Shown: positions 12,066-20,303 of the stretch, piece by piece | How the letters are laid out: each line of letters begins with the position of its first letter | Numbering within the stretch: the first letter of the stretch is position 1 | Assembly: GCF_013414345.1 (NCBI RefSeq) | Contig: NZ_CP058670.1 | Coordinates: 248,001 to 312,000 of the forward strand | Length of the DNA stretch: 64,000 bases | Source of the DNA: Microcella indica | Lineage (GTDB): Bacteria > Actinomycetota > Actinomycetes > Actinomycetales > Microbacteriaceae | Direction: 5' to 3' | The notes under the pieces: generated by a model | Told to the model about the DNA's origin: nothing | Databases searched by the model: none | What the model saw: only the letters and a program-made list of their open reading frames with translations | Position numbers and translations under genes: made by a program

Positions 12066-12110
12066 GCGCCATCCACCCCACTCCCGCCGGCCGCGCATCT
12101 GCGGTCGCCT

Positions 12111-12168
12111 CGTACGGGTTGCGACACCTCGCACTGTCGGAAGCGTGCGAGGTGTCGCAACGAGTACG
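12111..12168. repeat. long hairpin, upstream flank of the AbiEi-like gene
   Basis: A perfect 17-bp stem (12118-12134 with 12145-12161) around a 10-nt loop, extended by a further 5 bp (CGTAC/GTACG) across a 2-nt mismatch. It follows guaB by 46 bp and could act as a terminator. The core GACACCTCGCAC recurs in the hairpin at 13250-13283. Confidence 0.8.
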
Positions 12169-12269
12169 ACGTGCTGACGCGCCTCCTCAGGAGATGCTCG
12201 CGAGCGGACACTGTGCACATTCGGGTACCTGACGCACGCGGCTCCCGGTAGCTGGGGCAAGGTCACGGC

Positions 12270-13268
12270 ATGGCCGACATCATCGCCGACGCACTCGCTC
12301 ACGCCATCGTGGTCGCCGAGGTCGACGACCCATCCCTCGCCCGGTCGCTGCAGCGAGCGACTGTGCAGGGCGAGGTCGTGCGACTGGTTCGCGGCATCTA
12401 CGTGCCGCGCGCGGTGGTCGAGCGTCTTGACCCTTGGGATCGCGAATTGCTGCGCACGGTTGCCGCCGCAACTCGGGGGCGCCTTCGGCAGCCGCTGTGC
12501 GGCATCTCTGCGGCGCGGGTGTGGGGAGTACCGATTCTGGAGGACGAGTTCGCTCCGGTGGTGGATGCGCTCGGGTGGGACGACCGCGCCACCCGGCGTG
12601 CCTCTGATCTGCGGTACTGGGCAACCGCGGATGACGAGTTCCGTGTCGTCGAGCATCGCGGGGCAGTGGTGACGGATCTGCCGCGCACGCTCGCCGAACT
12701 GGCCGTCCGTTCAGGGTTCGGGCGGGCCGTCGCGGCGATCGACTGGGCGGTTCGGGTACGGCGGCGTCCCGGCGCCCCGGCGACGACCCTGGACGACATC
12801 CGCGCGGCTGCGGAGGCTCTCGCGCTCGTGCGAGGCAGGGCTCGCCTCGAGCGCGCTCTCGCATTCGCCGACGGACGCGCCGAGTCGCCGGGGGAGTCCT
12901 GGATGCGTGTGCTCATCCACCAACTCGGCTTCGAGGTTCCCGACCTGCAGCATGAGTACCGGCTCGCCGACGGTCGACGCTTCCGCACCGACGTTCGGTG
13001 GCCGACGATTCGGCTCGCGGGTGAGTTCGATGGGCGCCTCAAGTACCGAGCCGGCGAGGCGCGGGGCGGCCGCAGCGCCGAGCAGGTGGTCATCGAGGAG
13101 AAGGATCGGGAGGACGCCGTTCGGGGAACCGGCGACGGGATGCTCCGCTGCGTGTGGGACGACCTGCGAGATCCGCGTCTCCTGCGCCACAAGCTCGAGG
13201 CTGCCGGAGTGCCTCGGCGGTCACGGCCTGCGCGCCTCGCACTGAAAGAGACACCTCGCACGCTCTGA
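12270..13268 (+). CDS. AbiEi-like winged-helix protein with DUF559/Vsr-like endonuclease fold
   Basis: The protein has 332 residues. The N-terminal 70 residues (VVRLVRGIYVPRAVV) match the AbiEi antitoxin winged-helix domain. The C-terminal 120 residues have a PD-(D/E)XK-like arrangement: ESWMRVLI (about 210), a conserved Asp in FRTDVRWP, then LAGEFDGRLKYR, as in DUF559/very-short-patch endonuclease relatives. Many actinobacteria carry such proteins annotated as type IV toxin-antitoxin components; no AbiEii-like toxin is adjacent here. It is a singleton, bracketed by hairpins sharing sequence, and its stop codon lies in the loop of the downstream one. Biological role unknown. Confidence 0.7.
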   Translation: MADIIADALAHAIVVAEVDDPSLARSLQRATVQGEVVRLVRGIYVPRAVVERLDPWDRELLRTVAAATRGRLRQPLCGISAARVWGVPILEDEFAPVVDALGWDDRATRRASDLRYWATADDEFRVVEHRGAVVTDLPRTLAELAVRSGFGRAVAAIDWAVRVRRRPGAPATTLDDIRAAAEALALVRGRARLERALAFADGRAESPGESWMRVLIHQLGFEVPDLQHEYRLADGRRFRTDVRWPTIRLAGEFDGRLKYRAGEARGGRSAEQVVIEEKDREDAVRGTGDGMLRCVWDDLRDPRLLRHKLEAAGVPRRSRPARLALKETPRTL

Positions 13269-13283
13269 CGCGTGCGACGTGTC
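13250..13283. repeat. hairpin overlapping the end of the AbiEi-like gene
   Basis: GACACCTCGCACG pairs with CGTGCGACGTGTC (13 bp, one C-C mismatch) around an 8-nt loop containing the TGA stop (13266-13268). Its core is identical over 12 bp to the arm of the upstream hairpin at 12123-12134. Confidence 0.75.
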
Positions 13284-13322
13284 ACTTTCCGTGCGAAGCG
13301 CGGGTGGCGGGGCGGGTGCGGC

Positions 13323-18659: not shown

Positions 18660-20260
18660 GCGAGGTCAGCACTGAGGCGGTCACTGCGGCGGTCACCGAA
18701 GCCCGGCCCGTGCTCGTCGTCGACTTCGGCGCTCAGTACGCCCAGCTCATCGCGCGGCGTGTGCGCGAGGCGAGCGTGTACAGCGAAATCGTGCCGCACA
18801 CGATCACGGCCGCCGAGGTCGCGGCCAAGAACCCCGTCGGCATCGTGCTCAGCGGCGGCCCCTCGAGCGTGTACGAGCCGGGCTCGCCCGACCTCGACCC
18901 GGGAATCCTGCAGCTCGGCGTGCCCGTCATGGGCATCTGCTACGGCTTCCAGGTCATGGCCAAGCAGCTCGGCGGCGAGGTCGCGCGCACGGGTCGCCGT
19001 GAGTACGGGTCGACCCCGATGCGCGTCGTCGGCGACGGCGGCGTGCTGCTCGCCGGTCAGCCCGACGCGCAGACGACGTGGATGAGCCACGGCGATTCGG
19101 TGGCGCAGGCCCCCGACGGCTTCGACGTGCTCGCCTCCACCGACGACACCCCCGTGGCGGCGTTCGCGAGCGACGAGCGCAAGCTGTACGGCGTGCAGTG
19201 GCACCCGGAGGTGAAGCACTCCGAGTTCGGGCAGGGCGTGCTCGAGAATTTCCTGCACCGCGCGGCGGGCATCCCGGCCGACTGGAACAGCGGCAGCGTC
19301 ATCGCCGAGCAGGTGGAGCGCATTCGCGAGCAGGTCGGCTCGGCCCGCGTCATCTGCGGCCTCTCGGGCGGCGTCGACAGCGCGGTCGCGGCGGCCATCG
19401 TGCACGAGGCGGTCGGCGATCAGCTCGTGTGCGTCTTCGTCGACCACGGCCTGCTGCGCGCCGACGAGCGGCGGCAGGTCGAGGAGGACTACGTCGCGGC
19501 GACGGGCATCCGACTGGTGACGGTGGATGCCCGCGAGCAGTTCCTCGACGCCCTCGCAGGTGTCACCGACCCCGAGTCGAAGCGCAAGATCATCGGGCGC
19601 GAGTTCATCCGCACCTTCGAGGGTGCGGCGGAGGCGCTCGTGCTCGAAGCGCAGGGCGAGGGGGAGGCCGTGCGTTTCCTCGTGCAGGGCACGCTCTACC
19701 CCGACGTCGTCGAGTCCGGCGGGGGCACCGGCACGGCCAACATCAAGAGCCACCACAACGTGGGCGGGCTGCCCGAGGATCTCGAGTTCGAGCTCGTCGA
19801 ACCGCTGCGCGCGCTCTTCAAGGATGAGGTGCGGGCGATCGGCCGCGAGCTCGGGCTGCCCGAGGCGATCGTCGGCCGTCAGCCGTTCCCCGGGCCGGGG
19901 CTCGGCATCCGCATCATCGGCGAGGTCACGCTCGAGCGCCTCGACCTGCTGCGCGAGGCGGACGCGATCGTGCGCGCCGAGCTCACGGCGGCGGGGCTCG
20001 ACCAGGAGATCTGGCAATGCCCGGTCGTGCTGCTTGCCGACGTGCGATCGGTCGGCGTCCAGGGCGACGGGCGCACGTACGGGCATCCCATCGTGCTGCG
20101 CCCCGTCTCCTCGGAGGACGCGATGACGGCGGATTGGACGCGCCTCCCATACGACGTTCTCGCGCGCATCTCGAACCGCATCACGAACGAGGTGGACGGC
20201 GTCAACCGGGTCGTGCTCGACGTCACGTCGAAGCCCCCCGGCACTATTGAATGGGAATAG
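18656..20260 (+). CDS. guaA: GMP synthase (glutamine-hydrolysing)
   Basis: The enzyme has 534 residues and aminates XMP to GMP using glutamine and ATP. The class I amidotransferase domain has Cys95 in GICYGFQ and the His/Glu pair in [10 protein letters not shown]. The ATP pyrophosphatase P-loop is [12 protein letters not shown] near 235. The C-terminal dimerisation domain has [15 protein letters not shown] and ends with the standard GTIEWE. The start overlaps the DUF3817 gene by 4 bp. The last codons and stop form the left arm of a 22-bp perfect hairpin. Confidence 0.97.
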
Positions 20261-20303
20261 TTGCGCAGCGAGGCCATTTCTGGCCTCGCTGCGCAACTAT
20301 TCC
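20254..20303. repeat. 22-bp perfect hairpin with ATTTCT loop across the guaA stop
   Basis: Arms 20254-20275 and 20282-20303 are perfectly complementary over 22 bp, with loop ATTTCT. The guaA stop codon (20258-20260) is in the left arm. The loop and adjacent GGCC match the hairpins at 20338-20361 and 37883-37906, so it belongs to the same element family. Confidence 0.9.

Follow-up and report, generated by a model that had tools for sequence, protein, structure and literature searches.

The gene for P0001, a putative nuclease encoded in the window (the 64-kb stretch of DNA analysed here, which belongs to a 2,585,348-bp single-contig genome, 100% complete), and the two palindromes that bracket it seem to constitute a single unit similar to REPs and REPtrons, run by a nuclease that is not of the HUH type. 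We favour this reading by a modest margin, and the binding, cleavage and movement that it implies are inferred. Matching private ends, dispersed solitary copies of the palindrome, and presence or absence at orthologous sites are shown by computation, as are a change of locus, purifying selection and the conservation of the nuclease residues.

The nuclease gene, its two palindromes and its product

The gene for P0001 (332 aa) occupies positions 12270-13268 of the + strand. The upstream palindrome (12110-12169, with no strand assigned) is located 100 bp 5' of its start codon and has 25-bp arms with mismatches and a 10-nt loop, and the downstream palindrome (13231-13302, also without strand) overlaps the 3' end of the gene. 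Both are around 60-72 bp long and hold four TCGCAC-like words each, with a spacing of 19 bp between the outer and the inner word and a mirror-image arrangement around the 10-nt loop. In the upstream palindrome these words are TCGTAC (12110-12115), TCGCAC (12129-12134), GTGCGA (12145-12150) and GTACGA (12164-12169), and in the downstream one TCGCAC (13237-13242 and 13256-13261) and GTGCGA (13272-13277 and 13291-13296). The DNA folds were calculated at -28 kcal/mol (z -8.5) for the upstream palindrome and at -19.1 kcal/mol (z -5.0) for the downstream one (13240-13300), and in both cases 0 of 200 shuffles equalled the value. The stop codon of the gene (13266-13268) is inside the loop of the downstream palindrome, so the final residues of P0001 are encoded by the palindrome itself.

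The 12-mer GACACCTCGCAC was found in exact form at 12123 (+), 12145 (-) and 13250 (+), and the fourth arm, at 13272 (-), carries GACACGTCGCAC, with one mismatch to it. When up to one mismatch was allowed, four matches to GACACCTCGCAC were detected in the 64 kb, all of them in the two palindromes (0.98 expected), and 0 of 100 shuffles of the window attained this number. Throughout its own genome (2.585 Mb), the three exact copies (3/3) and both full palindromes sit at the P0001 gene. The reversed control also gave three matches in this genome, the same number as the bare 12-mer, and therefore it is not the frequency of GACACCTCGCAC but only its placement that rises above chance.

The neighbours of the gene are guaB, encoding IMP dehydrogenase, and a gene for a GFO/IDH/MocA oxidoreductase on the opposite strand. 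No AbiEii-type nucleotidyltransferase partner adjoins the P0001 gene, and neither a modification enzyme nor an antitoxin was found among its five named neighbouring genes; a type IV toxin-antitoxin system was rejected for lack of a partner gene. A single terminator-like match, on the minus strand, was detected at the gene (0.2 expected), and Rfam gave no match at the gathering score in six loci.

A preliminary description, made from the sequence alone, had claimed two related hairpins bracketing an AbiEi/nuclease gene, with the stop codon in the second loop and no toxin partner, and these claims held, supported by folds that beat 200 shuffles, by the shared words and by the neighbours named above. 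Its 12-bp core shared with its complement held for three arms, the fourth having one mismatch, and the end that it assigned to the second hairpin, at 13283, is amended here, as the palindrome extends to 13302.

Elsewhere in the window (20254-20303) there is a perfect palindrome with 23-bp arms (GGAATAGTTGCGCAGCGAGGCCATT...), located between convergent gene calls. Its sequence is unlike that of the window's own family, and it could be either a terminator or another family's solitary palindrome.

P0001 alone did not match any Pfam profile. A weak PADLOC AbiEi match (E 1.8e-5) was detected at residues 24-86 (12339-12527, +), and this AbiEi-like region is the presumed DNA-binding part. Of 25 aligned family members, nine matched AbiEi_4, two MTES_1575 and two DUF559. 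The Pfam matches of the relatives were AbiEi_4, AbiEi_1, MTES_1575, DUF559 and, once, DUF7485, but never Y1_Tnp; the match to AbiEi_1, the C-terminal domain of AbiEi, was in the relative L080, at residues 77-194. The nuclease core assigned to P0001 (residues 209-280; 12894-13109, +) comprises E209, D241, E252-x-D254-G255, K258, E277 and R280, all of them invariant across the 25 aligned sequences. Among 76 relatives, E209, D241 and G255 are kept in 100%, R280 in 99%, D254 in 96%, E252 in 95%, K258 in 87% and E277 in 86%. By analogy with the known fold, we take E209, D241, E252, D254 and K258 to be the PD-(D/E)XK active site. Comparison by hhalign of the window's set with the relatives bearing DUF559/MTES_1575 gave 100% and an E value of 2.9e-42 over 277 columns, which is most of the length.

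These profiles and invariant residues make it likely that P0001 is an AbiEi-type winged helix fused to a PD-(D/E)XK domain of the MTES_1575/DUF559 type, in agreement with the AbiEi winged helix and DUF559/Vsr-like nuclease of the preliminary description, with the fold unconfirmed. That description had also proposed inspecting the PD-(D/E)XK site in a predicted structure. The AlphaFold2 model, built from only four sequences, had a pLDDT of only 38, and because of this the assignment as a nuclease is based on the profiles and on the invariant residues. The search for PDB relatives by sequence produced only flagellin (E 0.56-0.65), taken as chance. The nearest relatives in public records belong to two actinobacterial MAGs and a 'Microbacteriaceae bacterium', and dN/dS values of 0.15-0.26 in seven pairs of nearest relatives show purifying selection.

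The sole paralogue of P0001 found in its own genome (L003, C1:361815-365705) is 35% identical to it. The flanks of this paralogue are weakly alike (score of 31 between upstream and downstream), without a strong hairpin adjoining, and it belongs to a locus, named C, that is common to several genomes of the genus.

The ends of homologous genes

The family was searched in 60 genomes, including that of the window, giving a total of 116 matches in 48 of them. From these, 91 loci were examined and 90 yielded a gene, the exception being L075, without a tblastn hit. For each gene, the 250 bp immediately upstream of the coding region were compared with the 260 bp around the stop codon, and a local-alignment score of at least 25 was taken as a match of the two ends; two of the 90 loci were left out of this comparison for lack of a flank, and three were left out of the downstream palindrome test. 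Matching ends within one gene were found in 53 of 88 homologues versus 2 of 141 control genes, and pairs of ends taken from different loci reached the threshold in 88 of 7656 cases. When the homologues were clustered at 50% identity, matching ends were found in 28 of the 56 clusters. A phylum-wide set, derived from 30 loci after exclusion of L251 and L252 (already in the first set) and of L276 (without flank), showed matching ends in 15 of 27 genes versus 0 of 702 mismatched pairs; one of its loci, L254, corresponds to the gene also listed as L074. The sequences of the flanks vary from gene to gene, yet they agree at the two ends of a single gene. No clear matching ends were detected in 35 of the 88 homologues.

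Long palindromes (score of 15 or more) were found upstream of 18 of 90 genes versus 0 of 57 control zones of neighbouring genes, and downstream of 22 of 87 genes versus 1 of 54 such zones. With a score of 10 or more, 19 of 87 genes had palindromes at both ends, 33 at one end and 35 at neither, and 15 of the 29 downstream palindromes with a score of at least 12 overlap the end of the gene. The 19-bp spacing is also a feature of the family within its own order: of 177 family flank zones, 48 contain identical 7-mers exactly 19 bp apart, versus 4 of 258 control windows. The phylum-wide set did not show this period (2/54 versus 1/82). A single genome (G044) carries four distinct family genes (L068, L069, L071 and L073), each with different palindromes. 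In the sub-clade formed by L079, L080 and L090, the flanks carry direct repeats of a word of around 20 nt (type GTGATCATGCAATCCCGCC) and not palindromes.

The family is present in at least 90 of the 246 phylum genomes sampled, with no more than nine candidates scored per genome. In three genomes of one genus from another family (G113, G148 and G169) all nine scored candidates were family genes, so the true number of genes is probably higher there, and this genus could serve as a many-gene model.

Solitary palindromes and changes of locus

In the 26 genomes of the genus, the bare GACACCTCGCAC gave 33 matches versus 12 for its reversed control. As the bare word mixes chance matches in coding sequences with real sites, the full palindrome was used in its place. 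With up to two mismatches, the full window palindrome was detected 44 times, in 12 of the 26 genomes, and the reversed pattern not once. Seven of these copies are at family genes and the other 37 are away from the gene, distributed in 11 of the 26 genomes; no family gene was found in the 36 loci fetched around these 37 solitary copies (0.5-2 kb to either side). According to our own simple gene caller, 25 of them are located between convergent genes, 9 between genes in tandem, none between divergent genes, and 3 inside weak ORF calls, with the orthologous sites L119/L122, L189/L190 and L285/L284 counted separately.

The number of solitary copies is low, with at most 14 per genome, and none was found in the window's own genome with the full palindrome at up to two mismatches. 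The presence of a window-type gene was not a significant predictor of solitary copies (4/5 versus 7/21 genomes, p = 0.13). An association between the gene and two or more palindrome copies (p = 0.0009) was set aside, as it counts the copies at the gene itself. Copies without a detected TCGCAC-type gene were found in G016 (99% complete; 2 copies), G020 (75%; 14 copies) and G004 (81%; 2 copies).

Solitary copies were also detected for two further gene families. The palindrome of the second one, around L068, is found in G044 twice at the gene and three times as a solitary copy, and G060 has two solitary copies, the presence of the gene in G060 being untested; it was not found in the other 16 of the 18 genomes of that genus, and its reversed pattern gave no match at all. 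The palindrome of the third family, that of locus B, has matches in G019, G007 and G002. The cognate gene is present in all three, and G019 and G007 have two solitary palindromes each. Contrary points are one stray match in G014, one match of the reversed control, and the absence of the palindrome from G023, which carries the gene relative L047/L048 (an identical sequence on two contigs).

An alignment of 37 copies of the window-type palindrome, comprising the 2 from the window and 35 solitary ones (L122 and L190 were omitted), was used to analyse the conservation of pairing between the arms. Pairing is kept in 81.9% of the cells, versus 77.3 ± 0.8 in shuffles and no more than 48.3 when the arms were slid, and changes on both sides that keep the pairing appear in 65 cells, versus 41.8 ± 4.9 in shuffles and 21-39 in slid arms, many of them in the spacer between the words. 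No clear excess was found when the pairs with a both-side change were counted (13 versus 11.1; 44 of 500 shuffles), nor in further pair types (33 versus 32.8). Weighed together, these pairing data favour a hairpin, or a mirror-image correction of the two arms, and the both-side changes could also stem from correction by template switching.

One convergent site was compared across 20 genomes. The window-type palindrome is present there in five (G015, G016, G004, G012 and G020), a different, terminator-like hairpin in ten, and no hairpin with a score of 10 in four. The terminator-like hairpins in half of these genomes (10/20) make a terminator role possible for the palindromes too. At this site in G003 (L210, orthologous to L111) there is a palindrome built on the same plan from a different word, and the spacer of this genome is around 650 bp longer than those of its relatives (845 versus 133-237 bp).

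It is indeed possible that the protein is an immobile regulator-nuclease, with the palindromes serving as its operators and terminators: the AbiEi-like domain would bind the upstream copy and so repress its own gene, transcription would end at the downstream copy, the solitary ones would act as bidirectional terminators or protein-dependent roadblocks, and no DNA would be mobilised. Support for this comes from AbiEi and Rv2827c, whose autoregulation relies on inverted sites repeated in their promoters (PMC7319586), from the 25 of 37 solitary copies between convergent genes, from the different terminator-like hairpins at the convergent site (10/20 genomes), and from the descent of several gene loci and some solitary sites, which are shared by inheritance. 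This explanation does not account for the same private sequence at both ends, for the word of the gene at dispersed sites, or for the presence and absence between relatives and the change of locus of a gene described below; moreover, none of the 37 solitary sites is at a divergent promoter, and the only terminator-like match at the gene is on the minus strand. Autoregulation alone was rejected as insufficient, given the downstream and dispersed copies and the 0/37 at divergent promoters.

A second alternative, which we consider unlikely, is that the palindromes are ordinary REPs moved by another enzyme, with the nuclease gene as a passenger or a favoured insertion site. Solitary copies in genomes without a detected cognate gene speak in its favour. 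Against it, Y1_Tnp was found in 0 of the 26 genomes of the genus, so that REPs driven by RAYTs were rejected, although other transposase families were outside that search; in addition, the different family genes of G044 carry different palindromes, and the link between gene and matching ends holds phylum-wide.

The preliminary description had likened the layout to that of REP-associated transposases, with a nuclease in place of the Y1 transposase, and this is supported by the matching flanks and the solitary copies. The two surveys it had proposed were favourable: the flanks match in 53 of 88 homologues, often as palindromes, with 35 of 88 lacking a clear match, and solitary palindromes were found in related genomes for three gene families. 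It had named as a refutation that the palindromes were common intergenic terminators unrelated to the gene, which is not what the data show, because the palindromes are gene-specific and matched at both ends.

The unit favoured here was also compared between orthologous loci. The guaB site is without the gene in six genomes of the genus, in such a manner that guaB adjoins the oxidoreductase gene in G010, G023 and G006, and guaB3 in G002, G009 and G019. At another locus, named D, the gene is present in G019 and G023, and many relatives have a short spacer; G024 was omitted from this comparison because one anchor was not found. The G019 gene has its palindromes and a third one, and that of G023 has similar ends and no strong hairpin. 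At the same position of locus D, G005 (L224) has a long palindrome of unrelated sequence, and a computed check found palindromes of other sequence in G005 only, and not in G002, G009, G018 or G001. Neither a target duplication nor an exact junction was found at guaB and locus D, only presence and absence, because the empty sites are too diverged at the nucleotide level for a boundary or a duplication to be read.

A tree was built from an alignment of 76 of the 90 proteins, those intact and within the length range. The locus-D genes nest among the guaB-locus genes, and a topology in which the guaB genes are held together was rejected (AU p = 1.3e-6), with the caveat that the grouping by locus was tested when an earlier tree had already been seen. 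These data show that a gene of the window's clade has changed locus. In the genus tree, the locus-C genes and most of the locus-E genes nest among the locus-B genes, and the flanks of L064, L021 and L074 tie them to B, E and C, respectively, with the tree placing them elsewhere. In the case of L064 (G009) both flanks are those of locus B, yet the gene is distant from the locus-B clade, as if this locus had received a second, unrelated member of the family. In other genera, L063 and L033 (a partial gene) are found at these loci (guaB and locus B), inverted relative to the flanks, as if they had been flipped or newly inserted. Transport by phages or plasmids was rejected: P0001 had 0 matches in phage records and three weak, partial matches in plasmids, and no relative was detected in viral contigs by a search that reached close relatives only.

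The absence of the gene from the guaB site in six genomes could also be expected from a selfish nuclease that cuts chromosomes without the palindromes, or with altered ones, in a homing-like or post-segregational manner, the palindromes being protective or guiding repair. The conserved nuclease residues under purifying selection, and an AbiEi-like domain that recalls a toxin-antitoxin ancestry, are also in its favour. Nevertheless, we regard this possibility as very unlikely, given that several lineages are without the gene, that no modification enzyme or antitoxin is among the five named neighbours, and that the 37 solitary copies are left unaccounted for.

Proposed mechanism and comparison with known systems

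In the mechanism that we propose for the REP-like unit, the winged helix would recognise only its own palindrome of around 60 bp, by means of a 6-7-nt word that is present in four copies, with a spacing of 19 bp and in mirror image around the centre. The nuclease would then cut or nick its own palindrome, whose form at that moment is probably that of a hairpin, either extruded or single-stranded, much as TnpAREP acts on REPs in spite of the two enzymes being unrelated. This cut would allow copying or transfer of the palindrome to further intergenic positions, most of them between convergent genes. The movement of the whole gene unit would be rare and the spread of the palindromes slow, and the system would otherwise persist by vertical descent, with protein and palindromes changing together. 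Binding, cleavage, the hairpin substrate and the mechanism of copying are all inferred, with no biochemistry behind them; by analogy, the promoter sites of AbiEi and Rv2827c support the binding step and leave the downstream and dispersed copies unexplained. Against a mobile unit stand the lack of a solitary copy in its own genome, the failure of gene presence to predict such copies, the small number of them, and the genomes that have copies without a detected cognate gene.

A bolder reading, which we find attractive but would not quite endorse, is that this is a phylum-wide, minimal kind of mobile DNA in Actinomycetota, of independent origin, in which a nuclease co-evolves with its own multi-word palindromes and spreads them, rewriting intergenic and terminator regions. 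If each gene moves its own palindromes, this would provide many unexplained actinobacterial nucleases with a role, and a REP-like economy would be run by a second enzyme family, unrelated to the first. As many genes carry the candidate binding site of their own product at either end, there are dozens of natural pairs of protein and site from which the recognition by AbiEi-type domains might be read directly if the inferred binding is correct. The system also offers a source of hairpin turnover between convergent genes.

Among known systems, IS200/IS605 and MITE-type elements have hairpin ends and non-autonomous copies without a gene. The unit described here is like them in both respects, and differs in lacking an HUH transposase and in that no target duplication was seen. 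With the AbiE type IV toxin-antitoxin systems it shares the AbiEi-like N-terminal region, with the AbiEi_1 match of L080, and the repeated inverted sites near the gene; unlike them, it is without an AbiEii partner and has an additional, C-terminal nuclease domain, and its sites are also found downstream and elsewhere in related genomes. By profile, P0001 belongs to the same protein family as the REase_MTES_1575/DUF559 nucleases (Pfam PF18741 and PF04480), and the open-licence literature searched did not yield any description of palindromes associated with this family.

The closest parallel is with REPs, which are intergenic palindromes, mainly between convergent or unidirectional genes, tied to HUH tnpAREP genes that are mostly single-copy and without evidence of mobility (PMC8266576, PMC3733652, PMC3116915). 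As in REPtrons (TnpAREP/RAYT with REP/REPIN), a single gene lies between palindromes, the cognate palindromes are dispersed in intergenic regions, mainly convergent or unidirectional, the gene is mostly vertical, and gene and palindromes diversify together. Unlike in REPtrons, the enzyme is not an HUH/Y1 protein but combines a PD-(D/E)XK nuclease with an AbiEi-like winged helix, the palindrome consists of four copies of one word with a 19-bp spacing and has no GTAG tetranucleotide in the consensus of the 37 aligned copies, the copies number at most 14 versus hundreds for REPs, and a gene of the window's clade has changed locus, a mobility not reported for tnpAREP. With no HUH enzyme, neither in the protein nor in the genus, and no GTAG, the window system is therefore not a REPtron, though it apparently works alike, and it meets the REPtron features of a gene flanked by its own palindromes and of cognate palindromes dispersed in the intergenic space.
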